From a virus: a stretch of 52,172 nucleotides of DNA. The notes beneath the pieces were generated by a model. That model ran no database searches. It was not told the origin of the DNA and saw only the letters and a list, made by a program, of their open reading frames with translations. Shown here one piece after another: positions 3,842-52,075 of this stretch. Numbering within the stretch: position 1 is the stretch's first letter; every line of letters starts with the position of its first letter. Position numbers and translations under genes: made by a program. The stretch lies in IMG/VR virus record IMGVR_UViG_3300035682_001872, positions 1 to 52,172 of that record; one strand, written 5' to 3'.

Positions 3842-4432
3842 ATGTCACTTAATTCAAAACTCGATTCCGATATATTCAAAGACCATGCTGATTACTGGAT
3901 GGTTGCCGACAACATTAAAAATCTCTATCTGTCAGACGGTAGTCTGTTGACGTTGTTGGATTTTGAGCGTGTGCTAGATGAACTAGATCTATATGCGTTT
4001 AAAAACTGGCAATTGGGAGAATTGGTTGCCGGCCCCGAAGTCAGAAAATACAAGGTTGCTTGTATTTTTATGTGGCCTGAAAAGCTTATGCCGGACCCAC
4101 GCGGTGCCAGACGCCTGCTGCCGTTTGATTGTACCATAAAGTACAAAAAAACCACAATTAAAATTCCCATCAAGATCGAAGAACCTGATGATTTTGTTCC
4201 AGGCACACACAAAGCTCGATTGGTAGAGAAAAAAGTGTGGTTGGTGGAAATCGTTATACCCAAAGCACTCATGAACGATATACGTACAGGGTCTATAGAA
4301 ATGGAAGACCAGTTGATTGATCTAGAGGATCTCGATTCGGCATACCAAGAAGACCTTGATCAACAGGAATTTAAAAAAGATGAAACCAATGAACAACCAG
4401 CCGCTCAACCGTCAATCCAACCAGCTGTTTGA
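3842..4432 (+). CDS. Conserved hypothetical, possible structural or accessory protein
   Basis: 196 aa, predicted soluble. The N-terminal part is helical (DHADYWMVADNIKNLYLSDG), the middle is beta-rich (IKYKKTTIKIPIKIEEPDDF) and the last 50 residues are strongly acidic, then Pro/Gln-rich. No enzyme motif was seen. It sits directly behind a perfect late-promoter element, which suggests expression with virion genes. It overlaps the next gene and the two probably form a pair. Function not recognised. Confidence 0.7.
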   Translation: MSLNSKLDSDIFKDHADYWMVADNIKNLYLSDGSLLTLLDFERVLDELDLYAFKNWQLGELVAGPEVRKYKVACIFMWPEKLMPDPRGARRLLPFDCTIKYKKTTIKIPIKIEEPDDFVPGTHKARLVEKKVWLVEIVIPKALMNDIRTGSIEMEDQLIDLEDLDSAYQEDLDQQEFKKDETNEQPAAQPSIQPAV

Positions 4433-4949
4433 AGGACTGGAATACAAGGACTTGGTAGGCATGATGAAGCCTACCATGCATATTGACGAATTTTCGTCTA
4501 AAATGGGCGACGACGATGACATTATTGTTGTCAGTTTTTTTGTACGCAGCAAGGCGGCTGCTACTGACTTGATGAATTGGTTCGAGAAAGGCTATGATTG
4601 GGTGCTGGATGCAGATGTAAGTCCAGGCGAAATCAAACCCGGAAGATTTTTGGTCTATATTGAATTGCGCCGCCGCAGTGCAGCCGGTCGAAACTTGGCT
4701 GAAGCTGTGGATGATTTATCCACACTTACAGAATACGACTCTACAGATTGGAACATGCATTACGACGGCAAAGATATTCCCTTCAGTTCCGAAGTATTTG
4801 ATCGCACTGTTCCGCTCAGTCCCAAAGATTATCGCAAGCAAAAAGAATCAGACCTAAATGAAATGAGATCTGCTGCCGGACTAGATACTGTGGCAATTCA
4901 CGAACGAGAAAAAGATATTCGTCAGTTACAAGCAGCAGCCGGTATATAA
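4380..4949 (+). CDS. Conserved hypothetical paired with the previous gene
   Basis: 189 aa from ATG 4380, which has an AGGA Shine-Dalgarno 11 nt upstream; a longer reading from TTG 4356 is open but less likely. An acidic GDDDD loop is followed by a beta/alpha domain (IIVVSFFVRSKAAATDLMNW, then GRFLVYIELRRRS) that resembles a small ferredoxin-like fold. The C-terminus is charged and helical. It overlaps the previous gene by 53 nt. No family recognised. Confidence 0.7.
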   Translation: MKPMNNQPLNRQSNQLFEGLEYKDLVGMMKPTMHIDEFSSKMGDDDDIIVVSFFVRSKAAATDLMNWFEKGYDWVLDADVSPGEIKPGRFLVYIELRRRSAAGRNLAEAVDDLSTLTEYDSTDWNMHYDGKDIPFSSEVFDRTVPLSPKDYRKQKESDLNEMRSAAGLDTVAIHEREKDIRQLQAAAGI

Positions 4950-12602: not shown

Positions 12603-13184
12603 ATGCGGTCTTATATAATAACTTTAGATACTGATCACAGTAAAAAATTATTACAAGACTGCATCTCCAGTTGTCAAAAATGGGGATGGTCAGCAGAGCC
12701 ATTCCCAGCCACATTAGGCACTGCTGTAACAGCCCCGGACTATAAACGTGCAGGGCTTTATCTTAATCCCAATACCAAAATATATCAACGTCCTGGAGCC
12801 CAAGGCTGTTTTTTTAGCCATTGGCGATTATGGCACAGATGTATAGAGTTAAATGAACCCATTGTTGTATTGGAAACTGATGCTGTTGTAAGAGGCCCTA
12901 TGCCCCAGTTAGATTTATCACTAGGTATACAAAAATTTCACCAAGATCGCGGTACTAAAACAGGCACCACAGGAACTTGGAGCAAAGGTGCACATGCCTA
13001 TGCGCTAAATCCTCAACAGGCTGCTGCGCTGATTGCAGGTATTCAAGCAACAGAAGTCAAACCCAGTGACAAGTGTATAGGGACACAGTTTGTACATTGG
13101 CAGCACTGGGATTGGAATTTGGTTGAACTTAACTCGCGACGTGGTCCATCTACCACTGCAAAACCTTTTCGAATAAATACATAA
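12603..13184 (+). CDS. Glycosyltransferase family 25-like
   Basis: 193 aa from ATG 12603. It begins RSYIITLDTDHSKK, a typical GT25 N-terminal strand. The key region GAQGCFFSHWRLWHRCIEL is followed by PIVVLETDAVV, matching the GT25 pattern GxxGCxxSHxxxW then an acidic EDDA motif, here ETDA. GT25 enzymes add sugars in lipopolysaccharide synthesis or glycosylate proteins. The stop overlaps the start of the 1467-aa gene (TAATG). The first acidic residue of the motif is retained; replacement of the second by Thr could affect metal binding. Confidence 0.72.
   Translation: MRSYIITLDTDHSKKLLQDCISSCQKWGWSAEPFPATLGTAVTAPDYKRAGLYLNPNTKIYQRPGAQGCFFSHWRLWHRCIELNEPIVVLETDAVVRGPMPQLDLSLGIQKFHQDRGTKTGTTGTWSKGAHAYALNPQQAAALIAGIQATEVKPSDKCIGTQFVHWQHWDWNLVELNSRRGPSTTAKPFRINT
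13172..13179 (+). promoter_or_regulatory. Late-like motif AATAAATA before the 1467-aa gene
   Basis: AATAAATAC ends 4 nt before ATG 13184, inside the end of the GT25-like gene. There is no Shine-Dalgarno, so this gene may be translated either by coupling from the previous stop or from a leaderless late transcript. Confidence 0.42.
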
Positions 13185-16100
13185 TGGACATCAAAGAGCT
13201 ACAAGATTATCGCCTTAGCGATGCTATTAAATTTCACAACTCTCTTAACCCACGTATTTGGGGATCAGACGAGCACCTCCTGCCCGAGGTTCGCCAAAAA
13301 CTATTGGCCATTGCCGAAGACTTCAAAGAGTTTCTGGGTCTAGACTTAGAAGTCAAAGACATCACTATTAGTGGCAGTAACGCAGCTTACACCTACACAG
13401 ATCACAGCGACATTGATTTACATCTAGTGGCAGACTTGCCCCGGGCAGATGCCAGCGAAGTTTATCGCGAACTGTTTGATGCCAAAAAATATCAGTACAA
13501 TGATCAACACAATTTCAAAATTGGCGGATATGATGTAGAGCTTTATGTACAAAACGCCAACGAAGATCCAAAGAGTCAAGGCATTTATTCGGTTCTCAAC
13601 AACGAATGGATTAGTGTACCCAAGAGACGTAAACCTGAAGTAGACGACATTTCAGTAAAGAGCAAATACGAAGACCTAGGCCAACGTATCGAAGCTGCTA
13701 TCAAATCCGGCGATACCCGACATCTAGAAACACTCAGTAAAAAAGTACGCGAATTCAGACAGGCTGGTCTAGATCAAACAGGTGAGTTTGGGCCTGAGAA
13801 TTTGGCCTTTAAAATACTGCGCAGCAATGGCACCCTAGATCAATTGCGGGCAGCACGATTAGCTGCCAAAGATCGAGAACTCAGTGTAGACGAAACCCAG
13901 GAAAAGAAACCATTCAAGTTTGGTTTCAAAGACCTTAATCCTATGGAAGACTGGCATCCCAATGAAGAGCCGCCTGGTCCTGAGTCCAAGCCGACAATGC
14001 CAGCAGGCACTGTGCTAGTCGATGTGTCGGACACATACGACTGGTACAAGCTGGGTCAAGACATCAGTGACCTGGATCATGCTAATCCCAAGATGTACGG
14101 TCAAGGCGCACCACAGACTATCATAAATTTTGGCAGCGAACCTTTAGAACACAAGTATATCAAGAAGTTAGAAAGACTAGGACTAAAGACACACGATATT
14201 GACCCAGCTGGCAAGAAACTGGATCGCGAAACAGAATTTAAAGTAAACGAAGGTGCTGACAATATACAAGCACAGTTAGAAAAGTTTGCTGCATTTTGCA
14301 GTGAGAAATTAGGCATAGAGAATCCTCCTAAGATTCAATTAAAGCGAGATCCAGAATGGTCAAAGCGTAATGCTACATTTGGGCGTTATATCCCTGAGAT
14401 TAAAACATTAGTATTATCTGTGGCCAATCGTCATCCCATGGATATCATGCGTACACTAGCACATGAGTTAGTGCATCGCCGTCAAGACGAAATTGAACCC
14501 ATGCCGTATCATGCTGGCGACACTGGCAGTGAATGGGAAAATGAAGCCAATGCTAAAGCTGGTGTGTTGATGCGTAGTTATGGTGAACAGAATCCTGGCA
14601 TGTTTGACAAGAAAGCCTTGGCAGAGGGCTCGGGCAAAAGTGACTACAAAGAAATAGAATTTGTATGTGCCAACCCTGAATTTCCTGACGCTACAGATCC
14701 TGAGTTACAAAAACAAATGCATCTTGGACTACAACAGATTCCAGGTGTAATACCATTGTTGCAAGATCAAAGTGAATACAGCGAAGGTCAGTGCAGTTTG
14801 GCTGCAATATACAAAGATCGTTCAACACGATCTCAAATATTAAAATTGGCAAAACAATTGGGAGTTCAGGTAGATTTAGAACAACCGGTCAGTGATGATT
14901 ATGTTGACCGAGCCATACGCGGAGAACATTATGGCCAACAGGTTGTAGCAGAAGCTTCGGGTTATATTCCTGTCAACGATAAAGAAGCTCGCGATCCACG
15001 CTACAGCATGGCTGTCACAGTTGATATCAAACCTGGTGAACCCAAACGTCAAGCTGCCAAGCTGGGTTGGAAGACTACTGCTGCCGGTACACCACCTACT
15101 GCCCGGACCAATGGCCTTGTTGAAGAACTCACACGCAAGTTACAATTAGTCAAAGAAGGTTTAGGATTTCCTTTGGTCAGTGAACAAGAACAAGAGCTGG
15201 AAGAAGTGGCCATGAGTCCCAGTGCCCTGCGGTCCTTTGCCAACAGTGAAGCCGCTGCAGGCATGAAAGCCGGCTTTGAAGCTGAGTTAGTGTTTACTGG
15301 CATCGGCGGCGACGAAGAAGAAGGCGAATGGGAAGCTGACTACAGCTATGATCCCCGTGCCTACAGCCTTGAGAACATTGAAGACTTTTTTGACTCAGGC
15401 GATTTTGCTGAGGGCATGACACGCCAAACAAAAGCGGCATTAGAGCAAGACTATATGGAATGGTATGACCAGACCCTGTATGATGAGTTTGATGCACCTG
15501 TTGCTGTACGTGAATGGATTCAAGACAATGACTGGGACGAAGAAGACCTTATTGAACGTGCGTTAGATGATGAATACAGAGAAGACCGTGTGAAAGAGAT
15601 ACTGGCAGCCATGGAACGACGGGTTAAAGGCACTGGTACTGCCGCTGATGCTGACTTGGTAGAAGAATATGTGGGTGCCGAACAAGAAGTCGAACGACAG
15701 CTGGATGAACGTGTAGAGATGGCCATAGCAGAACAGAACAGCGACTTTGAAAGTGCCTTGGACGAATTTAGAGAAAACTGGGACCGGTCCGAAAGCGACT
15801 GGTTGCGTGATCGAGGTTGGCGCAGCATGAGTGATATAGCCTACAACTTTGACGTCACATGGCCACACATGACCATGACGGGTGGCAGCTCCGAAGGTGG
15901 ATTCAACGAAGACGCAGCACAACGGTTAGCTGATGACTTGGCAGATAAGTTAGATGTTACAACCACTGTCAGCACAGGTTATCACGGTGCTACTCGTGAC
16001 ACAAGTACTTGGATTTTTGAACCCGACGGCAGCTTAGATGCCGACGATGATGCCAACATGCCAGTGGAGATTGTGAGTCCACCTATGCCACTAGCAAAAA

Positions 16101-17587
16101 CTCTGGAAATCCTGCCCAAGTTTTTTGAGTGGGCTGAAGAAAATGGTGCTTATGCCAATAGCTCTACTGGTTTCCACATGAGTGTCAGCATGCCCGAGCA
16201 CGAAGGAAACATGCTGGATTACACAAAACTGGCCTTGTTCTTGGGCGACGAGTATGTGTTGAAGCAGTTTGGACGTGAAGCCAACACTTACGCCAAGAGT
16301 GCCATCAGCAAGATTCGTGACAAGAAAGGCAAGGTTGATGCCGAGACTGTTATGTCTGCCATGCGCAAGCATTTAGATCAGTTTGCTTCACGTGCTTTAG
16401 CCAGTCCTTCAGGCTTTGGCAAATACACCAGTATCAATCCCAAGAGCAAATACATCGAATTCCGATCAGCTGGCGGCAGCAACTATTTCGAAGACATGGA
16501 TAAAATCCAAAATACCTTGATGCGTTATGCTCGTGCCATGGACATTGCTATGAATCCTGCAGCTGACAAGCCAGAATATGCCAAGAAGCTGTACAAGATG
16601 CTGACTGATGTCAAAACACAAGAGATTACGGATCCTCGGACCGGTACAAAACGTACAGAAGTTGTGCCCGGCCTTGACAATGATGCCATTGCCGTATTCA
16701 GTCGTTTTGTAGCAGGTGAGTTGCCCAAGTCAGAACTCAAAGGCTTTATTAAAAAGATACAGTACAGTCGTGACGTGGCACGACAAAAAGCCAGCGGAAA
16801 AGTTTCAACAGATTACGATCCCGACGGCAATTATGTGATACGTAGTAAAGATTCTGAAGGAAAACCCCAAGGTTCTGTACTACATAGATTTAGTGCCACT
16901 GGTACCAGTGCTGCCATAGAACAAGCAAAACAATGGATAGAGGCACGTGGGATTGAGAAATCATCCGTGCATCTGGCTCACGTCGAAAATGTACCAGCAG
17001 AGATTTTAGCCACAGCACCTACTGCACCTCCTACACAGACTCCACAGACAGATCAACTCAATGCTCCAGTGGCAGATGATCCTCGTGGCAACTATGTGTT
17101 GCGACAAAGAGAAGGCGCCGAAGGCAGAGGAGCAGTGTTGCACAGATTTTCGGCTCCAAACAACAGGGCAGCGATAGAAGCAGCACGTGAATGGACCACT
17201 GCTCAGGGTATAGAGCGTCGTACTGTGTGGTTGGATCATATATCGGGTGTACCACCCGAGATACTAAATGCTGCACCTATTAGGGCCACAATAGGCGAAC
17301 CTCGTCCAGCATTTACTGAGCCACGGTCCAATTCTATCCCTGAAGTGCCACTTGACATAGCACAGAACTTTCCACCGATCCAGACAGAACCTCAGAATTT
17401 TCCGGCAGCACAACAGACTGGTGGTGAGTTCTCCGGTGAATGGAAAGTAGTGGATGGACTGAACCGAGAAGTTTATAGATTCAGCGGTGTTGGTAACAGT
17501 CAAAGTGATGCCAACCGAGTAGCACGTGAGTGGGCCCAACGTACCGGATTTGATGGGAACCTGGAAGTATATCCGGTAATGAGATAA
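13184..17587 (+). CDS. Giant multidomain protein: nucleotidyltransferase, HExxH protease and amidoligase domains
   Basis: 1467 aa. Domains in order: a Pol-beta-type nucleotidyltransferase with GSN near residue 64 and DHSDIDLHL (D76, D78); a zinc peptidase-like segment with HELVH at 427-431 and a downstream acidic EWENEANAK; a YIPVN...DPRYSMA module near 594; and an amidoligase-like (PF12224-type) domain, GFEAEL near 697, EIVSPP near 960, STGFHMSV near 995 and KYIEFRSAGG near 1090. Three repeats of about 60 aa close the protein. Candidate prohead-protease sites VNE|G (356), LAE|G (481), VAE|A (590) and VKE|G (658) fall between domains. Domain calls are by motif; packaging and processing are inferred. 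It probably leads the 13-23 kb cassette. Confidence 0.75.
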   Translation: MDIKELQDYRLSDAIKFHNSLNPRIWGSDEHLLPEVRQKLLAIAEDFKEFLGLDLEVKDITISGSNAAYTYTDHSDIDLHLVADLPRADASEVYRELFDAKKYQYNDQHNFKIGGYDVELYVQNANEDPKSQGIYSVLNNEWISVPKRRKPEVDDISVKSKYEDLGQRIEAAIKSGDTRHLETLSKKVREFRQAGLDQTGEFGPENLAFKILRSNGTLDQLRAARLAAKDRELSVDETQEKKPFKFGFKDLNPMEDWHPNEEPPGPESKPTMPAGTVLVDVSDTYDWYKLGQDISDLDHANPKMYGQGAPQTIINFGSEPLEHKYIKKLERLGLKTHDIDPAGKKLDRETEFKVNEGADNIQAQLEKFAAFCSEKLGIENPPKIQLKRDPEWSKRNATFGRYIPEIKTLVLSVANRHPMDIMRTLAHELVHRRQDEIEPMPYHAGDTGSEWENEANAKAGVLMRSYGEQNPGMFDKKALAEGSGKSDYKEIEFVCANPEFPDATDPELQKQMHLGLQQIPGVIPLLQDQSEYSEGQCSLAAIYKDRSTRSQILKLAKQLGVQVDLEQPVSDDYVDRAIRGEHYGQQVVAEASGYIPVNDKEARDPRYSMAVTVDIKPGEPKRQAAKLGWKTTAAGTPPTARTNGLVEELTRKLQLVKEGLGFPLVSEQEQELEEVAMSPSALRSFANSEAAAGMKAGFEAELVFTGIGGDEEEGEWEADYSYDPRAYSLENIEDFFDSGDFAEGMTRQTKAALEQDYMEWYDQTLYDEFDAPVAVREWIQDNDWDEEDLIERALDDEYREDRVKEILAAMERRVKGTGTAADADLVEEYVGAEQEVERQLDERVEMAIAEQNSDFESALDEFRENWDRSESDWLRDRGWRSMSDIAYNFDVTWPHMTMTGGSSEGGFNEDAAQRLADDLADKLDVTTTVSTGYHGATRDTSTWIFEPDGSLDADDDANMPVEIVSPPMPLAKTLEILPKFFEWAEENGAYANSSTGFHMSVSMPEHEGNMLDYTKLALFLGDEYVLKQFGREANTYAKSAISKIRDKKGKVDAETVMSAMRKHLDQFASRALASPSGFGKYTSINPKSKYIEFRSAGGSNYFEDMDKIQNTLMRYARAMDIAMNPAADKPEYAKKLYKMLTDVKTQEITDPRTGTKRTEVVPGLDNDAIAVFSRFVAGELPKSELKGFIKKIQYSRDVARQKASGKVSTDYDPDGNYVIRSKDSEGKPQGSVLHRFSATGTSAAIEQAKQWIEARGIEKSSVHLAHVENVPAEILATAPTAPPTQTPQTDQLNAPVADDPRGNYVLRQREGAEGRGAVLHRFSAPNNRAAIEAAREWTTAQGIERRTVWLDHISGVPPEILNAAPIRATIGEPRPAFTEPRSNSIPEVPLDIAQNFPPIQTEPQNFPAAQQTGGEFSGEWKVVDGLNREVYRFSGVGNSQSDANRVAREWAQRTGFDGNLEVYPVMR
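16817..17263 (+). repeat. Two tandem protein repeats in the 1467-aa protein
   Basis: Copy 1 (16817-17005) and copy 2 (17078-17263) encode about 62 residues each with shared blocks: DPxGNYVxR, GxVLHRFSA, AAIExAxxW, GIExxxVxLxH and a VPxEI end. A more distant third copy (about 17434-17587) starts GEWKVVDG and has VYRFSG and VAREWAQ. They look like a repeated small alpha/beta binding module. DNA identity is lower than protein similarity, so the duplication is old. Confidence 0.7.
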
Positions 17588-17590
17588 CAC

Positions 17591-18148
17591 ATGAGAGCTA
17601 GCGAATTCATAATCGAAAACTTTGCAGATGGCAATAAAAAGATTGCCTTTCGAGTTAAAAAAAGTCGCAATAATTTTGCTACAGAAATGACAGTGAATGG
17701 GGAACCAGTTGGAGTGTATCAATACAATGCTGCCACCGGCCGTAGCATTGCAGAGATTGACCCAGAATTTCGTAGTCAAGGACTAGGTAAAATTCTAGTG
17801 CTGCATGCCATTTATACAGCAGCACAATTAGGAATGGATTTTCAAGAAGATGAATCGCGAACTACTGCTTACGATAACGTGTTAGACAGTTTAAGCAGCA
17901 ATGGCTACATTGTAGATGATGATGGTTATTGGTATGTCACAGGCGCAGGCGAACAGTTCTTAAACACTTCGTTGAATGAAAACTTTGCAGATGGCAAAGT
18001 TAAAGGTAAAAGCCGTCCTGGGCGTGTCAAACGTGCCGGTGCCAGCTGCAACGGATCAGTTACTAGTCTACGCAAACGAGCCAAAGCAGCATCCGGAGAA
18101 CGTGCAAAGATGTACCATTGGTGTGCCAACATGAAGTCTGGTAAATAA
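17591..18148 (+). CDS. GNAT-like acetyltransferase with capsid-targeting-like leader and basic tail
   Basis: 185 aa. It opens with MRASEFIIE|N, which resembles the T4 capsid-targeting leader (MKTYQEFIAE|A) and its IxE cleavage site. A GNAT core follows, with IAEIDPEFRSQGLGK giving the acetyl-CoA-binding (R/Q)xxGxG motif near residues 61-66. After residue 120 the sequence repeats the leader end (SLNE|NFADG at 128-130) and continues as a basic tail with two cysteines (SCNGSVTSLRKRAK; YHWCANMKSGK). If cut at both sites it would give an enzyme and a basic peptide. The target of acetylation is unknown; head packaging is inferred. Confidence 0.72.
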   Translation: MRASEFIIENFADGNKKIAFRVKKSRNNFATEMTVNGEPVGVYQYNAATGRSIAEIDPEFRSQGLGKILVLHAIYTAAQLGMDFQEDESRTTAYDNVLDSLSSNGYIVDDDGYWYVTGAGEQFLNTSLNENFADGKVKGKSRPGRVKRAGASCNGSVTSLRKRAKAASGERAKMYHWCANMKSGK

Positions 18149-18152
18149 CACC

Positions 18153-18362
18153 ATGCGACTAATAGAAATTGCCCAACCCAAGAAATCCAAGCTCAAGACT
18201 TATGAGATACGTATTAAGATTCCAATCCTCGGCGGCGGCATGACCAATACCTTTACCACTGTAATGGCTTTAAATCCACAAATGGCTCGCAAGATAGTGC
18301 AAGTACAATACAATGTACCCGGCATACTGATGGGGCAACCTCGAGAAATCAAACTACGATAA
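18153..18362 (+). CDS. Small basic hypothetical with MR leader
   Basis: 69 aa, MRLIEIAQPKKSKLKTYEIR, then a strand-rich middle with a GGG turn and NVPGILMGQPREIKLR. It is basic and small. The N-terminal MRLIE may be a divergent form of the leader seen in neighbours, but it lacks a clear site near residue 9. Unknown function; probably part of the same cassette. Confidence 0.6.
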   Translation: MRLIEIAQPKKSKLKTYEIRIKIPILGGGMTNTFTTVMALNPQMARKIVQVQYNVPGILMGQPREIKLR

Positions 18363-18387
18363 ACAATTGTTAGGCTATCAACAAATA

Positions 18388-18409
18388 CCTAAATCTTGTT
18401 AGGTTTTAG
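18388..18409 (+). terminator. Weak hairpin terminator after plus-strand genes
   Basis: ACCTAA at 18388-18393, a 6-nt loop and TTAGGT at 18400-18405 form a six-pair stem followed by TTT, between convergent genes. The stem is AT-rich, so termination would be weak. It overlaps the last codon of the minus-strand gene. Confidence 0.3.
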
Positions 18410-19264
18410 ATTGGTAAAAACAATGGGTTTGTAATCATAACTTTCGGGACAAAATTTACATTGTGGGACCACAGAATCAATGTTGTCCATAAACTCTTGA
18501 CCACGCTGATCAAACTCGTCTACTCCTAAACCTTGATAGCCTCTCATGATTACGCGATCTTCATCTGATAAATCGAACTGATACTGGTCGTCGAATTCTG
18601 GCATCAGTGCTACAGGTCCACACTTGTATATACGCCCCCGAATCATGTGATAGTTTTTAAATTTGCGATAAGCACAGACTTCATGTGCTATTTCTGGATT
18701 GCTATTGTACAATCCAAAACGTCCGTTGGCCTGTTCAATAATGTTGCTTTGAGAAAAAATATTGTTGACCCAAACATGAATATATTTTTGATCGGCATCA
18801 ATAAATTGATATCGGCTACCGACAGGATGGTTGGGATTTTCTGTTTCTGCTATTGGATGTTTTAAAAAATTGCGTATACGAGTAAACAACGTTTCTTTGT
18901 GTTCTACAGAGTGTAGACTAATCCCAATCCAGTTGTCATGATTTATTGCATCGTACAGCCCAGGTACTAGATCCAATCTAGTACCGTTGCTTTGAACCTG
19001 TACTCCACTGAGACGGGGCCACAAGCGTCTAAGGCCAGTAATCCAATCTACAATGTCAGGATTCAACAAGGGTTCACCTCCCAGTATTACCGGATGTCTT
19101 ATTTCAATCTTTTCTGCCCACTGTGTCAGTATAGGTTCAGCATCTGCCCAGCGCCAATGACCAGAAAATTTATAATTATTGTAACGATTGCACCCGCTGC
19201 AAGTCAAGTTACAGACATTTGTAATATAAAATTCTAGTCGATCTATAAGTATGCGTTCAGCCAT
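18389..19264 (-). CDS. Radical SAM enzyme with extra C-terminal Cys clusters
   Basis: 291 aa. The 4Fe-4S motif CNLTCSGC (CxxxCxxC) is near residues 18-25, followed by LGGEPLLNPD and QSNGTRLD strands of the radical SAM barrel. The C-terminal region has CAYRKFKN, IYKCGPVAL and CKFCPES, as in SPASM-type auxiliary clusters that modify peptides or other substrates. It starts with an AAAGGA Shine-Dalgarno on the minus strand. It interrupts a plus-strand cassette and points the other way, so it may be an insertion. Substrate not recognised; a packaged protein nearby could be one. Confidence 0.85.
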   Translation of the reverse strand: MAERILIDRLEFYITNVCNLTCSGCNRYNNYKFSGHWRWADAEPILTQWAEKIEIRHPVILGGEPLLNPDIVDWITGLRRLWPRLSGVQVQSNGTRLDLVPGLYDAINHDNWIGISLHSVEHKETLFTRIRNFLKHPIAETENPNHPVGSRYQFIDADQKYIHVWVNNIFSQSNIIEQANGRFGLYNSNPEIAHEVCAYRKFKNYHMIRGRIYKCGPVALMPEFDDQYQFDLSDEDRVIMRGYQGLGVDEFDQRGQEFMDNIDSVVPQCKFCPESYDYKPIVFTNLKPNKI

Positions 19265-19327
19265 AATGTATCCTTTGCTGAATACTTATATAAGTGTGAT
19301 CAGGTACAAATATATAGATACATTTTT

Positions 19328-19335
19328 GCTAAATA
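19328..19335 (+). promoter_or_regulatory. Late-like motif GCTAAATA
   Basis: GCTAAATA ends 4 nt before ATG 19340. No Shine-Dalgarno is visible, so this is another leaderless candidate. It lies in the 75-nt divergent gap after the radical SAM gene; the rest of the gap is AT-rich. Confidence 0.42.
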
Positions 19336-19339
19336 TCAA

Positions 19340-19636
19340 ATGCACACCGAATTTGTAAAGGTAACATTTGATATATTCTGCGACTGGGAAGGAACTCCTC
19401 CGATCTATCGAGTATTTGTCAACGACGAATTATTTACAGAGCGTACCTATATTTGGCACGACGTGTTTCTGGTAGAAATGCTGCAGATTCAAGCGCCACC
19501 AGGGCAATATAAAATACGAGTCAAATCTGCTGGGCCTGTCAAGACCAAATTCAAAGTGAGAAATCGCAAAATTGAAACTGGGCCGGGTAGTTGGATTGAC
19601 GACGAAACGCTGGAGATAACACATGCGAGCACGTGA
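19340..19636 (+). CDS. Small beta-rich hypothetical protein
   Basis: 98 aa with regular strands (FVKVTFDIFCDWEG, YRVFVNDELFTERTY, GQYKIRVKSAGPVK) and a final WIDDETLEITHAST. The pattern resembles a small beta sandwich of the carbohydrate-binding-module type found in phage fibres. The 3' end overlaps the next gene by 14 nt. Function inferred from shape only. Confidence 0.62.
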   Translation: MHTEFVKVTFDIFCDWEGTPPIYRVFVNDELFTERTYIWHDVFLVEMLQIQAPPGQYKIRVKSAGPVKTKFKVRNRKIETGPGSWIDDETLEITHAST

Positions 19637-19793
19637 ATTTATAAAAGAAAACGCATCTGCTGGTGCTACTAGCAGCGGCAGTGTTGCTGCAATAGCACAG
19701 CCAATGGGGGCAGTAATTACTCGCACACAAACCCGCAAACCTGGTAAATATAAAAACAGTTTAATACGGAACAAACAAAATGCTCGCAGATGA
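19623..19793 (+). CDS. Small protein with MRAREFIKE leader
   Basis: 56 aa. It starts MRAREFIKE|NASAGATSSGSV, nearly identical in its first nine residues to the GNAT-like protein (MRASEFIIE|N). The rest is Ala/Ser-rich then basic (RTQTRKPGKYKNSLIRNK) and ends ARR. If a prohead protease cut after E9, a basic peptide of about 47 residues would stay in the head. Both ends overlap neighbours, as is normal in this window. Confidence 0.66.
   Translation: MRAREFIKENASAGATSSGSVAAIAQPMGAVITRTQTRKPGKYKNSLIRNKQNARR
19743..19750 (+). promoter_or_regulatory. Late-like motif GGTAAATA before dps-like gene
   Basis: GGTAAATA lies 29 nt upstream of ATG 19780, inside the small preceding gene. Motif prediction only. 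Confidence 0.28.
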
Positions 19794-20223
19794 TTTAAAA
19801 ACTTTATTGGCAACAGAATATGCCATGGCAGTGAAAGCACAGTTCTTTCATTGGAACGTAGAGGGCCCAGACTTTGCACAACTGCACGAGTTCTTTGGCG
19901 ACTTCTACGCAGAAATCAACGATAACGCCATTGATCGCACAGCCGAATACATCCGTACCTTAGACGAATACGCTCCGGGTAGTTTTGAACGCTTTGGTAA
20001 CCTGAGCTTGATTCCGGGACAGATCAAAGTGCCACGTGCTCGACTCATGATCGAAGAGTTATTGGCTGACAATCAAACCATGTTGGATTTGCTGAATCAA
20101 TGTTTCGGTTCTGCTGAACAAGAAAATCAACAGGGCATTGCCAACTTTGTTGCCGAACGCTTGGATGCACATGGCAAACATCAATGGATGTTAAAAGCCT
20201 TCTTAAAGGACAACAGAGCATGA
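19780..20223 (+). CDS. Dps/ferritin-like protein
   Basis: 147 aa. The Dps signature is clear: AQFFHWNVEGPDFAQLHEFF near residues 21-40, then YAEINDNAIDRTAEYIRTL, including the conserved His, Asp and Glu that form the dinuclear ferroxidase site between subunits. C-terminal helices carry FVAERLDAHGKHQWMLKAF. Dps proteins form 12-mers, oxidise and store iron, and protect DNA. It lies among head-type candidates, so it might be packaged or guard phage DNA in the cell; no leader motif is present. Its stop overlaps the next start (ATGA). Confidence 0.85.
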   Translation: MLADDLKTLLATEYAMAVKAQFFHWNVEGPDFAQLHEFFGDFYAEINDNAIDRTAEYIRTLDEYAPGSFERFGNLSLIPGQIKVPRARLMIEELLADNQTMLDLLNQCFGSAEQENQQGIANFVAERLDAHGKHQWMLKAFLKDNRA

Positions 20224-21833
20224 GAATAAAGAACTTAGTTGAAGGCTTAAACGCACAGCAACGTTCAGTGCCTCAATTGCCAGCGCAGGCCAAGGCCCGG
20301 CACATCAGCGTGCTGGGTGCCAAGACTGATCCCAAGCATCCGTTTGCAGGTTACATGGTTGGTGCTGACGAAAGTGCAGAGCCAGGTAAGAAAAGTATAG
20401 GGCCCGACCGCAACGATCCTTGGGAAAAAGGATGGCGTGCTGGTTTTCGCCATAATGAATCAAATCCTTATCCAGCAGGTAGTAAAGAAGCCCAGCAATG
20501 GGACGATGGATATGCCGAAGCCGAATCACAACCACGTCATTATGACGAAGGCCGTGCCGGAGTCGACGATACTGACACAGTTGGTTTTTCTGTCAACACA
20601 GAAGCAGCGTACACGGCTGTAATGAAGCGGTTTGGTGATGTAATTGATCATGATGAAACGTCAGGCGTTATGTACGCACCGGCACGTGTATGGCCCCAAA
20701 TAGAAATGGTAGCATTTGACGCTGATGGAGAAGGTGCTACTAGAGATGATGGTATTGCCGAGCAAGGTGTGGCGGAAGCAACTGGTGACCCCAAATTTGA
20801 CAAGATGCTCAAAGGCATCACTGGTAAAAAAGCAGTAGCAAAACAACAAAAAGCGGATACTAAACAACAATCCCGTGATGCTTTTGGTAGTATGTTTGGT
20901 GGCAGTTCTTCAGAACTGACCAGCAAATTAAAAATCAGAGAGCAAGGTGTTGCAGAAGCCAGTAGTTCAGCACAGCAGGCCGCCATTGCTATTGCCATGA
21001 AGAAAGCAGGTAAGAAACCCCGATCAGTGGACGAAGCCGAAGCAGTTAAACAACGTCTAGATCCCAAGTGCTGGAAAGGCAAACACATCGGTACTCCAAA
21101 AACCAAAGTCAAAGGCGGAGTTCGTGTTAATAACTGTGTGCCTAACGAAAGTGTAGCAGAAGCCGAGCGTAATGAAATGGATACCGCTGCTGTACAAGCT
21201 GCACTGGCCAAGATGGCCGAACGCCATAAAGGCGAGAAGTGGTCAAAAGAACAGTTAGCAGCCTTGGGCAAGCGTATTGCTGCACGTGGCCAGAAACCAG
21301 TCAAAGAAGATGACGTAGCGGATTTCCTAGCACGTGGCGGAAAAATTACACAGGTCAAACCCAATCGCGGCCCACGCAATCCAGGCCTAAGTCTTGGTAG
21401 CAAACACATCGGTGGTGGCGGTGATGGTGCAAGAGCAAGTCGTACCGGCCGTGGATCAAAACCGCAAGGTAAACCTGTGGTTGCTGTTGAATCTATAACC
21501 AAAGAAGATATCATTACTAAACTAAAAGCCCGGTTAGGCGATTACTTGAGCGATATCGGCCAGGAGATTCGTAAAGATCCCGACCTTATTAACAAGTTAG
21601 CAGCCAAACCTGCTGGTGATCAAATGGGTCCACCAGTTAAAACTGTGACCACAGACGACGGGCACGAAATCTCAATTCACGGAAACGAAGATGATGGATT
21701 CCGTATCTCAATCAAGAATAAACCCGCAGCTAGTAAATTTAAGAACTTAGATGAAGCTGTAATGGCCTGCGAAATGTATTGCGCACACCGTCGTGCAAAA
21801 ACTAAAAATGCTGACTATGTAAATGAGGCATAA
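20220..21833 (+). CDS. Modular basic protein with repeated VAE|A sites and an RMF-like segment
   Basis: 537 aa. Leader MRIKNLVE|GLNAQQ has an LxE site after E8. Residues about 69-103 (WEKGWRAGFRHNESNPY then KEAQQWDDGYAEA) resemble ribosome modulation factor, with an xGYxAGxxG...NPY...W..G pattern. Three internal VAE|A sites end at residues 186, 246 and 314, two preceded by EQG. A basic Cys module (DPKCWKGKHIG, then RVNNCVP) follows the second site. A Gly-rich stretch and a folded C-terminal domain (about 430-537) complete it. This is best read as a precursor cut into several basic peptides. No enzyme site recognised. Confidence 0.7.
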   Translation: MRIKNLVEGLNAQQRSVPQLPAQAKARHISVLGAKTDPKHPFAGYMVGADESAEPGKKSIGPDRNDPWEKGWRAGFRHNESNPYPAGSKEAQQWDDGYAEAESQPRHYDEGRAGVDDTDTVGFSVNTEAAYTAVMKRFGDVIDHDETSGVMYAPARVWPQIEMVAFDADGEGATRDDGIAEQGVAEATGDPKFDKMLKGITGKKAVAKQQKADTKQQSRDAFGSMFGGSSSELTSKLKIREQGVAEASSSAQQAAIAIAMKKAGKKPRSVDEAEAVKQRLDPKCWKGKHIGTPKTKVKGGVRVNNCVPNESVAEAERNEMDTAAVQAALAKMAERHKGEKWSKEQLAALGKRIAARGQKPVKEDDVADFLARGGKITQVKPNRGPRNPGLSLGSKHIGGGGDGARASRTGRGSKPQGKPVVAVESITKEDIITKLKARLGDYLSDIGQEIRKDPDLINKLAAKPAGDQMGPPVKTVTTDDGHEISIHGNEDDGFRISIKNKPAASKFKNLDEAVMACEMYCAHRRAKTKNADYVNEA

Positions 21834-21839
21834 TGCAAC

Positions 21840-21868
21840 TTGACCACAACCTAAATTGATGCTACACT
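21840..21868 (+). promoter_or_regulatory. Sigma70-like promoter before lipoprotein gene
   Basis: TTGACC (21840-21845), a 17-nt spacer and TACACT (21863-21868). The spacer contains CTAAAT five nt after the -35 box, the same register as at 37616 and 44097. It would start transcription about 15 nt before the lipoprotein ATG, which has an AAGGA Shine-Dalgarno. Confidence 0.6.
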
Positions 21869-21889
21869 GGGAAATCTAAGGATAAACTG

Positions 21890-22117
21890 ATGAAACGAAT
21901 CATACTCATTTTGGCAGCAGCCACAGCCCTAACAGGTTGTGTAGTAACAGATCCCTATTATATACAACCACAGCCAGTTTATGTACAACCTCGCCCAGTG
22001 TACATTCCTCCTCCTGTGTATTATCGACCACCTCCGCCACCTCCACCTCGTTGTTATTGGGTGCAGCGTTGGGATCCACAATATCGTGTGAATCGCAATG
22101 TCAGGGTCTGTAGATAA
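21890..22117 (+). CDS. Small Pro/Tyr-rich lipoprotein
   Basis: 75 aa. A signal peptide with charged MKR, hydrophobic IILILAAATA and lipobox LTGC predicts acylation at C17. The mature part is almost all Pro, Tyr, Val and Gln in PVY repeats with a run of prolines, ending in a Cys- and Arg-containing tail. It would be anchored in a membrane facing the periplasm. It resembles small host envelope lipoproteins, so it may have been acquired from a host; it could affect lysis or exclude other phages. It has its own promoter. Confidence 0.75.
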   Translation: MKRIILILAAATALTGCVVTDPYYIQPQPVYVQPRPVYIPPPVYYRPPPPPPPRCYWVQRWDPQYRVNRNVRVCR

Positions 22118-22188
22118 TGGACTATCCAGTGTATCCTGAACATCCTCAAGATAGCGACTGGAAGCGTAACCCTTACTCACCGGTGTAA
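22117..22188 (+). CDS. Possible 23-aa peptide
   Basis: Begins MDYPVYPEHPQDSDWKRNPY. Its ATG overlaps the lipoprotein stop (TAATG) and it ends 2 nt before the next gene, an arrangement typical of real small genes here. It is too short to assign; it could also be non-coding spacer. Confidence 0.4.
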   Translation: MDYPVYPEHPQDSDWKRNPYSPV

Positions 22189-22190
22189 TT

Positions 22191-22598
22191 ATGAGAGACC
22201 TATTAAATTTGTTCGAAGCAATTGAGAAAGGATGTCCTCCAGCCACACAAAGCATCAAGCTGAATCTTGAGAATCGTCAAAAGGCCATAGATGAATATGG
22301 CTACGGTCCCTTAGATCCCAATGCACCTAATGAAGAATTTTGGGCTGCAAAGGCCGAAGAATGGAACATGGACAACCCCGACGATGCCAAGTCAGCCTTG
22401 TGCGGTAACTGTGCTGCATTTGACGAAACCGACGACATGCTGTCGTGCATTGCCAAAGGCATTGGCAGCGAACCTGGATCAGATCCTGCCAGTACCATTG
22501 ATGCTGGTACACTGGGCTATTGCAAGTTTTTAAAATTTAAGTGTGCGGCCAAGCGCACTTGCGACGCTTGGGTTGAAGGTGGACCTATAAAGGATTAA
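22191..22598 (+). CDS. Cys-rich protein with MR leader, possible iron-sulfur or zinc protein
   Basis: 135 aa. Leader MRDLLNLFE|A has an LxE site after E9, as in its neighbours. The body has an acidic PNAPNEEFW region and six cysteines: CGNC, LSCIAKG, GYCKF and KCAAKRTCDAW. The CxxC...C...GYC order recalls high-potential iron-sulfur proteins (CxxC...C...GWC), but extra cysteines make this uncertain. A zinc site is equally possible. Probably a cassette member that is packaged or processed (inference). Confidence 0.62.
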   Translation: MRDLLNLFEAIEKGCPPATQSIKLNLENRQKAIDEYGYGPLDPNAPNEEFWAAKAEEWNMDNPDDAKSALCGNCAAFDETDDMLSCIAKGIGSEPGSDPASTIDAGTLGYCKFLKFKCAAKRTCDAWVEGGPIKD

Positions 22599-22599
22599 C

Positions 22600-22827
22600 A
22601 TGATTGACCGCATAAATTTTTCAACTGTTGATTTAAATCATTCTCCGGCTCCTGATTGTATAATGCCTCCAGATGATCCCATATACAACAATTTAGCAGC
22701 ACGTGAAGCTGAACGTATGAGTCTGCCCAACATTGACAGCACCAACCGCGGTGCAATACAACGCCAACAAAATATCAAGCCGGGAACCGAAGCTTGGTTT
22801 CAGCTATGGTTTAAAGGCGCAAGATGA
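22600..22827 (+). CDS. Small hypothetical protein
   Basis: 75 aa, polar, with a PPDDPIYNNLAAREAERM helix and a terminal TEAWFQLWFKGAR. It starts one nt after the previous stop, and its own stop overlaps the next ATG. No family recognised. Confidence 0.6.
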   Translation: MIDRINFSTVDLNHSPAPDCIMPPDDPIYNNLAAREAERMSLPNIDSTNRGAIQRQQNIKPGTEAWFQLWFKGAR

Positions 22828-23015
22828 GAGCAACAGAATTTGTTAGAAAACATAGGAAAAAAGTTAACGAGCTTGATTTCTTAGGAAGCCAATGCACTAA
22901 AGATTGTTCTGGGCATCGTGCAGGTTATGCTTGGAGTAAACGCAAGGGAACAGTGCCCAATAGTCGCAGTCCCAGTTTCAACAAAGGCGCAGCATTACAG
23001 GCCGCAGGAAAATAG
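22824..23015 (+). CDS. Small basic Cys protein with MRATEF leader
   Basis: 63 aa. It begins MRATEFVRKHRKKVNE|L, matching the cassette leader in its first six residues; the VNE site comes later, at E16. A CTKDCSGHRAGYAWSKRKG segment and SRSPSFNKG follow. This Cys/Arg-rich module is a recurrent type in such phages (recalled, not searched). It is probably DNA- or RNA-contacting because it is strongly basic. A further reading frame follows the stop. Confidence 0.6.
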   Translation: MRATEFVRKHRKKVNELDFLGSQCTKDCSGHRAGYAWSKRKGTVPNSRSPSFNKGAALQAAGK

Positions 23016-50925: not shown

Positions 50926-51151
50926 ATTATACGATGCTGTTCGTGCTCGTGGTGCTGTACAGTGGCTGATGACAAATGTAGGACCACAACAATCCGGTGC
51001 GGTCGGTACTGTAATAAGAGGAGAAGGATGGCAATGTTGGGTAAAGTATTATTCTGACGATTGGCACCTCCGGTTGCCGGAATTCTCTATTGAACTCAAC
51101 GAGCACGTGGACGAGGATACAAAATTGCTGTTTGCGTTATCGTGGTCATGA
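50915..51151 (+). CDS. Small hypothetical protein
   Basis: 78 aa with a GTG start inside the previous gene. SGAVGTVIRGEGWQCWVKYY looks like a small SH3-like or beta-barrel core, then WHLRLPEFSIEL and a terminal LLFALSWS. The last block distantly resembles the LRW ending of the following genes. Function unknown. Confidence 0.6.
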   Translation: MKIKLYDAVRARGAVQWLMTNVGPQQSGAVGTVIRGEGWQCWVKYYSDDWHLRLPEFSIELNEHVDEDTKLLFALSWS

Positions 51152-51393
51152 GCATACGAGAATTTATCGACCTGGCCCCGCTTGAATCAAGCGAAGAACA
51201 GTTATTTGATTGGTATAGCTATCTCAAGCAGGGCGGCTGGTATCCAGTGAACATTGGACTACGAACACGGTGGGAACCTGCACACCAATGGTGTATTCAG
51301 CAGTACGGCCAGGATCACTATACATGGACCGGCAATTCCTTTTGGTTTGAAACTGAACAGGATGCGGTGTTATTTCAGTTGAGATGGGCGTAA
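51148..51393 (+). CDS. LRW-family small protein 1
   Basis: 81 aa from ATG 51148, overlapping the previous stop (ATGA). It has WEPAHQWCIQQYGQDHYTWT and ends FETEQDAVLFQLRWA. The ending D-A-x-L-F-x-L-R-W/C is shared with the next genes, and an aromatic W-C pair lies in the middle. The family looks paralogous and expanded in tandem. No function recognised. Confidence 0.62.
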   Translation: MSIREFIDLAPLESSEEQLFDWYSYLKQGGWYPVNIGLRTRWEPAHQWCIQQYGQDHYTWTGNSFWFETEQDAVLFQLRWA

Positions 51394-51827
51394 TGTTCCA
51401 ACGGTTGAAACAACGGTGGCAGGCATGGCAGGATCGGCGATTCTTAAAACGACACGGATGCGCCTCTTGGGCAGAATATCATAGAATATATGATCCTGAC
51501 TACAACATTCGTGCCTGTTGTATACGTGACTTTTATCACGGCTATCCGCATGTTTACTGTTTTGAAAATCACAACCATTACATTTATCAAATGATAGCCG
51601 ATTACGGTCCAGGTGGTTGTAGATACGGACATAATGTAGTTCATAAGTGGGCTGAAGAGCATAGTCAAGATAAAGTAAGATTTGATTTTCATCGTGTAAA
51701 CAAATTTGATCACAATCGAATGGGCACATACGATTGGGATATAAATGAAATCAGTGGTCAAGATTTGGTTTTTGCTGCATTTAAAAACGAACGAGATTAT
51801 CTAATGTTTTTGCTGAGGTGGGCATGA
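51393..51827 (+). CDS. LRW-family protein 2
   Basis: 144 aa from ATG 51393, which overlaps the previous stop (TAATG). It is Tyr/His-rich and basic, with RFLKRHGCASWAEYH, CIRDFYHGYPHVY and a final KNERDYLMFLLRWA, the family ending. The N-terminal basic helix (QRLKQRWQAWQDRR) may bind nucleic acid. A CRYGHN segment adds possible metal ligands. Function unknown. Confidence 0.62.
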   Translation: MFQRLKQRWQAWQDRRFLKRHGCASWAEYHRIYDPDYNIRACCIRDFYHGYPHVYCFENHNHYIYQMIADYGPGGCRYGHNVVHKWAEEHSQDKVRFDFHRVNKFDHNRMGTYDWDINEISGQDLVFAAFKNERDYLMFLLRWA

Positions 51828-52075
51828 TCGTAGTTAACAAACAACACAGGTTAGAACATAAAGTTATAATGCATCAAACATCTGCGGTCGAGATCGAACG
51901 AATGTGTCAATGGTGCCATGACCAATTTGGAAAGAGATTTAGCATCACAGATCGCGAAACTTTCGGGCGTGACGGAACATGGCAATGTACATGGGATGGA
52001 GGCGGTCTGGCATCGTATACATTCTGCTTTGATCACGAACAAGATGCATTATTATTTACATTGAGATGCTCATGA
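51824..52075 (+). CDS. LRW-family small protein 3
   Basis: 83 aa from ATG 51824 (MIVVNKQHRLEHKVIMHQTS). It shares the central IERMCQWCHDQFG and the ending DHEQDALLFTLRCS with protein 1. Coupled to both neighbours by ATGA overlaps. Function unknown. Confidence 0.62.
   Translation: MIVVNKQHRLEHKVIMHQTSAVEIERMCQWCHDQFGKRFSITDRETFGRDGTWQCTWDGGGLASYTFCFDHEQDALLFTLRCS

Follow-up and report, generated by a model that had tools for sequence, protein, structure and literature searches.

A putative T4-like head-cargo cassette, partly composed of modular polyproteins, in a large uncultured phage

The IMG/VR record IMGVR_UViG_3300035682_001872, analysed here over its whole length of 52,172 bases (hereafter, the window), comes from a large uncultured T4-like phage, whose DNA polymerase shares 48-50% identity with its nearest counterparts, those of the jumbo phages Phosso and Atu_ph07. 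Between positions 17591 and 23015, it carries a cassette of genes that very probably encode head cargo similar to the internal proteins of T4, in part as modular polyproteins that the prohead protease would process, and probably delivered to the host (we assign this reading a probability of about 0.82). In the proposed mechanism, each protein would enter the prohead core by means of a capsid-targeting leader of the kind seen on T4 internal proteins, and a protease of the gp21 type would there cut after an [I/L/V/M]xE motif and free the mature protein. Since an exposed motif would be cleavable anywhere, modules could join up into longer proteins in which an internal site takes the position of the leader, and one modular polyprotein would thus give rise to several mature head proteins. 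The cargo would remain in the head after DNA packaging, and would then probably leave it together with the genome and act on the host at an early stage. Packaging and cleavage of the cassette proteins are what we infer from the sequences, and injection with the genome appears plausible.

A preliminary description of this region had listed five short N-termini, all of which are present as written, namely, MRASEFIIE/N (17591), MRAREFIKE/N (19623), MRIKNLVE/G (20220), MRDLLNLFE/A (22191), and MRATEFVRKHRKKVNE/L (22824), the slash marking the predicted cut. It had likened them to the T4 start MKTYQEFIAE/A, which was confirmed for ipII and ipIII. The T4 proteins IPI, IPII, IPIII, and Alt also bear a short leader ending in EFIxE on unrelated mature proteins, and the gp21 motif is L/I-X-E, but the leader of the window, MRAxEFIxE, is one residue shorter. 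Related loci were obtained via two cassette proteins and contain 17,802 distinct open reading frame (ORF) starts in all, so that the following counts describe the cassette across one clade and not phages at large. MRAxEF begins 82 of these ORFs (0.21 expected), and M[RK]xxEF[IVL]xE begins 78 (0.13 expected from column shuffles), compared with four when the E is swapped for D and five when it is swapped for K/R. When clustered on their first 40 mature residues, the 78 proteins form 31 unrelated families, single-linkage clustering being prone to merge modular proteins. A short leader ending in [L/I]xE is hence common to unrelated proteins, as in cargo with a capsid-targeting sequence of the T4 type. 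Furthermore, E9 and A10 of the 22191 protein are invariant in 16 homologues from 16 genomes while the rest of the leader varies, and homologues of the 20220 protein retain LxE (NLIE/G, NLLE/G, NLFE/G, and QLLE/S).

The (I/L)xE rule of the preliminary description is above chance in this specific shared form and, within the window alone, not in its generic one. A generic leader (F, a hydrophobic residue, any residue, and E near the start) was found at 3 of the 602 ATG starts of the window, with 2.6 expected, i.e., without enrichment, and the same expression was likewise not above chance in the closest relative of the window, G001 (159 kb), whose cassette is syntenic with that of the window. At such a level, the motif is weak evidence when taken alone, and the count would suit the explanation that the N-termini of adjoining genes resemble each other by chance. 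However, the 78 starts across the relatives against 0.13 expected, with four to five in the controls, make such a coincidence extremely improbable, and refute it for the MRAxEF leaders.

As a fragment of a genome, the 52-kb window holds no capsid genes or capsid operon, nor a gp21-like protease, for which the preliminary description had proposed a search; this enzyme (PF03420, family S77) is found in 6 of 23 relatives, namely, G001 and five others. In all six, it adjoins the portal gp20, the scaffold gp22, and gp23, and the T4 head operon gp20-67-68-21-22-23 is syntenic in the relatives of the window, with the S77 protease. The gp23 proteins of these six relatives read LKE/NAS (four of them), LSE/SAT, or LAE/SSA at the expected T4-type cut, in agreement with the L/I-X-E specificity of the T4 gp21 protease (PMC9026906). 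The same region of gp23 is found in the cassette itself, where a 56-aa protein (19623..19790; coordinates written with two dots lie on the plus strand) has, behind its leader MRAREFIKE, the stretch NASAGATSSGSVAA, which nearly copies the mature gp23 N-arm, and ends in a basic tail. Its IKE/NASAGAT resembles LKE/NASAGST at the expected cut of the major capsid protein of G001, and an arm profile made from the small proteins only, gp23 left out, retrieved the gp23 N-arms of the relatives as top matches outside the small-protein family.

This copy of the gp23 arm is also what would be expected if the proteins, although real substrates of the prohead protease, were core or scaffold components or capsid-lining peptides that serve head assembly only and are not injected. 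T4 core proteins are mostly cut and removed (PMC9026906), and several of the modules are short and basic. Nevertheless, the cargo includes enzyme-like modules (GNAT, amidoligase, and peptidase) and a SutA-type RNA-polymerase-binding motif, and the leader proteins kept in the mature virions of the cyanophage S-CREM2, considered below, include enzymes. A role confined to assembly is therefore possible, albeit rather unlikely.

With regard to the head-cargo reading, a second body of evidence comes from modules that recur in different contexts. The 17591 gene starts with the leader MRASEFIIE (17591..17617), whose predicted cut after E9 precedes NFADGNKK, followed by a GNAT-like module (17618..17980) that ends in TSLNE, a second predicted cut; in relatives, this module is flanked by QGVAE/G sites. 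Its match to Pfam Acetyltransf_1 (20.4 bits) falls just below the cut-off of 20.7, so that the GNAT label given earlier is borderline. Next comes a basic NFADG module of 55 aa, NFADGKVKGKSRPGRVK...YHWCANMKSGK (17981..18145), which is shuffled among unrelated proteins or stands solo behind a leader, in most genomes a single time (19 of the 23 large records each gave one match). A three-helix fold is predicted for it (predicted local distance difference test (pLDDT) score, 79), and a fold search with this model gave no significant match. The possibility that NFADG is a host domain was ruled out, as the module occurs in just 2 of 84,980 bacterial genomes, both of them contigs of metagenome-assembled genomes. 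Neither NFADG nor DCSGH was matched when cultured phages were searched with tblastn, indicating that the clade has no isolate, and the SINC and VNNC modules occur, among cultured phages, almost solely in those of Synechococcus and Prochlorococcus.

In each of 51 nonredundant NFADG contexts, P1 is E, and in 43 of them I, L, V, or M occupies P3, one search pattern having included NE, which may bias P2 and partly P1 and leaves P3 unaffected. Pooling NFADG with five more modules, [ILVMF]xE was found at 100 of 115 nonredundant junctions when one residue of slip was permitted in the placement of E, and P3 was hydrophobic in 88% of them, compared with 4-32% at the other scored positions. One could argue that xxE is a conserved first residue with a flexible linker and no cleavage, since the invariant E lies right before NFADG and domain homology could supply part of the signal. 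Such a linker is very unlikely, given that hydrophobicity at P3 is maintained in unrelated upstream contexts while that of other positions is not, that one rule applies to unrelated modules, and that the same bodies are also encountered behind cleavable-looking leaders.

Leader and internal site substitute for each other, the same bodies being found solo behind the former or embedded after the latter. The Cys-rich body of the 22191 protein (22191..22595, leader MRDLLNLFE/A; pLDDT 45, i.e., a structure prediction of low confidence) is embedded, without leader, in longer proteins after LSE/E or GVAE/A in loci L022 and L058. In the 22824 gene (22824..23012), the MRATEF leader is followed by KKVNE/LDFLGSQC and a Cys/Lys-rich DCSGH module, and [ILV]xE lies just upstream in 13 of 13 DCSGH contexts. 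The preliminary description, which was right about the leaders, overlooked the modular make-up of these proteins and their internal candidate sites.

Two long proteins, 13184-17584 and 20220-21830, carry in one polypeptide several unrelated domains that occur elsewhere solo, and in both, candidate sites and module exchange can be seen in the sequence. The 537-aa modular protein with the leader MRIKNLVE/G (20220..21830) has predicted junctions after nt 20777 (GVAE/ATGD), 20957 (GVAE/ASSS), 21035 (SVDE/AEAVKQRLDPKCW), 21161 (SVAE/AERN), 21308 (PVKE/DDVADF), and 21827 (YVNE/A), and homologous stretches in other contigs start at these junction sites. Seven [ILVM]xE[AGSN] sites were counted in it against 1.9 expected (p 0.01). 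Right after PVKE, a SutA-type RNA-polymerase-binding motif (21306..21365) scores above the cut-off of PF20661 in two scans (29.7 and 30.6 bits), and VxE precedes it in four relatives. The stretch that had been called RMF-like (ribosome modulation factor; 20451..20525) matches PF04957 weakly (E 0.01, 16.3 bits, below the cut-off of 27.9). The other long protein (1467 aa, 13184..17584) combines a nucleotidyltransferase, a HELVH peptidase, and an amidoligase (Pfam Amidoligase_2, 33.6 bits). Junctions are supported after nt 14251 (VNE/GADN) and 14953 (VAE/ASGYIP), the latter site being found in 15 of 15 ASGYIP contexts, and others are possible. A further leader-bearing protein, QLFE/GLEYKDL (4380..4946), matches PHROG 13138, a virion structural protein (E 3.9e-16), and its homologues in relatives read LSE/, LLE/, or INE/GLxYKDL. 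The extent of 17591-23015 given earlier is thus real but too narrow, as 13184-17584 and 4380-4946 are also members.

For the long cassette proteins, the closest concept in the literature is that of polyvalent proteins (Iyer et al. 2017, PMC5512222; P1 DarA and DdrB among them), which are large, with shuffled domains, some of them GNAT or peptidase, and are thought to be delivered with DNA, some being processed. The release of their domains is attributed to embedded peptidases (PMC5512222), and the xxE junctions of the cassette could similarly be cut by another protease, e.g., the HELVH metallopeptidase module in 13184-17584. However, the junction motif is that of T4 gp21 and agrees with the expected cut in gp23 from this clade, and the peptidase module itself lies solo behind leaders in loci L029 and L070, so that we consider this improbable. 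Unlike polyvalent proteins, the junctions of the window type carry candidate sites for a trans-acting prohead protease, and solo modules have their own leaders. Polyvalent hallmark domains (DarA-N, ArdC-N, LPDs, and ParB/MuF contexts) were not found in a Pfam scan of the cassette. A further parallel is offered by the ejection proteins and propeptides of phiKZ-like phages (gp53 and gp54 of SPN3US), where a prohead protease cleaves many head proteins behind a short motif whose last residue is E (PMC10052503), but these phages are of another lineage and their propeptides are removed, whereas the window-type junctions seem to have kept modules on both sides.

Unlike T4, window-type cargo is in part strung together as polyproteins that contain internal candidate sites, and one cargo copies the gp23 N-arm. 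The mature parts have no PHROG or Pfam match to IPI, IPII, IPIII, or Alt; T4 internal proteins are poorly conserved, and the absence of a match therefore weakens homology and not the mechanism. The leader would work like a T4 capsid-targeting sequence, and the new part would be the modular polyproteins cut by the prohead protease, which we judge new because no description of such phage polyproteins was found in the open-access literature.

In cultured cyanophages, modules of these kinds likewise follow leaders (e.g., MKTFKQFQE and MKTLKQFLKE), their genes being placed after gp23 or in the interval from gp16 to gp17. The virion proteome of S-CREM2 comprises 52 of 219 proteins (PMC10665884). A leader pattern fixed from T4 and window sequences selects six of the 219, five of which (gp6, gp13, gp14, gp136, and gp154) are in virions (Fisher's test against 52/219 overall, p 0.003), while two looser patterns gave p values of about 0.07. 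These leader proteins include a SAM hydrolase, a kinase, and a cytidylyltransferase, listed by the authors of that study as non-structural virion proteins (PMC10665884). The Cas9-like virion protein gp12 (L166, 7704-10313) has RFASFMAE/A at residue 25, which would account for its packaging. The module-bearing gp160 and gp156 were also detected in virions. As a separate observation, the virion protein gp160 (L168, 28342-29235) is made up of a gp23 N-arm copy and several Cys/Lys-rich modules with xxE sites between them, the copied arm being that of S-CREM2's own gp23 (GFTGAAAPEGPVAGYDP vs GFTGAAAPGGPNAGFDP). In S-SZBM1 virions (PMC9146016), a cytidylyltransferase with MRFRQFIIE/A, the one enzyme there, was found together with the module-bearing gp139. 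In another S-SZBM1 protein, the polyprotein gp194 (L170), a T4-like TYREFIAE/G lies mid-protein near residue 540, which looks like the result of a fusion with a leader-bearing gene.

Several points, along with the chance-level count of the generic leader, weigh against the head-cargo reading. The virion evidence comes from S-CREM2 and S-SZBM1, cultured cyanophages outside the clade of the window phage. The S-SZBM1 leader proteins gp191 and gp192 and the polyprotein gp194 are absent from the 30 proteins detected, and the association between leader and virion is not significant in this phage (p 0.36-0.45), so that the S-CREM2 result was not reproduced. No published N-terminal peptides at predicted junctions were found. 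The total site count in 13184-17584 shows no excess (four vs seven expected), most internal sites of this protein thus not being callable, and our claims are limited to junctions that recur in other contexts. Finally, the neighbouring 19780 (Dps) and 18153 genes show no conserved leader-plus-site. On the other side, the T4-type leaders, the S77 protease of the closest relative, and the same motif in the gp23 of relatives favour the head cargo suggested by the preliminary description, the cyanophage link between leader and virion being significant in one phage out of two.

With regard to these and other neighbours, the Dps/ferritin-like gene within the cassette (19780-20223; PF00210, 81 bits) keeps its position in relatives and lacks a leader. 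The small protein encoded at 18153-18362 begins MRLIEIAQP, and its homologues begin MRAQEF or MKAQDF, none retaining the xxE site. A small proline-rich lipoprotein (21890-22117, LTGC lipobox-like), kept in relatives, is possibly a superinfection or envelope protein. The radical SAM gene at 18389-19264 lies on the minus strand amid the plus-strand cassette, and G001 has no radical SAM gene at this place. Elsewhere in the window, small adjoining genes (50969-52075) have similar ends (LLFALSWS, VLFQLRWA, LMFLLRWA, and LLFTLRCS) and are apparently tandem paralogues.

The modules, which include the SutA-type motif, the borderline GNAT, the weak RMF match, the peptidase, and the amidoligase, are candidates for early action on the host, and by analogy, they could act as T4 Alt and IPI do. 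Extending the proposal, we lean towards the view that in cyanophages and in uncultured aquatic lineages of T4-like phages the prohead protease serves as a polyprotein processor, their interchangeable modules being encoded in whatever order or fusion, sharing one leader, being cut in the prohead and delivered together, and evolving by fusion of beads at the cut sites. If the head-cargo reading is true, a short sequence rule would foretell, from the genome alone, the head-packed proteins of large T4-like phages, many of them of no known function, and would cover unexplained cyanophage virion proteins such as the SAM hydrolase, the kinase, the cytidylyltransferase, and the Cas9-like protein. The capsid-targeting idea of T4 would be widened to modular polyproteins, and the question of which early effectors these abundant uncultured phages deliver could be put to a direct test through a new search of existing proteomic data.

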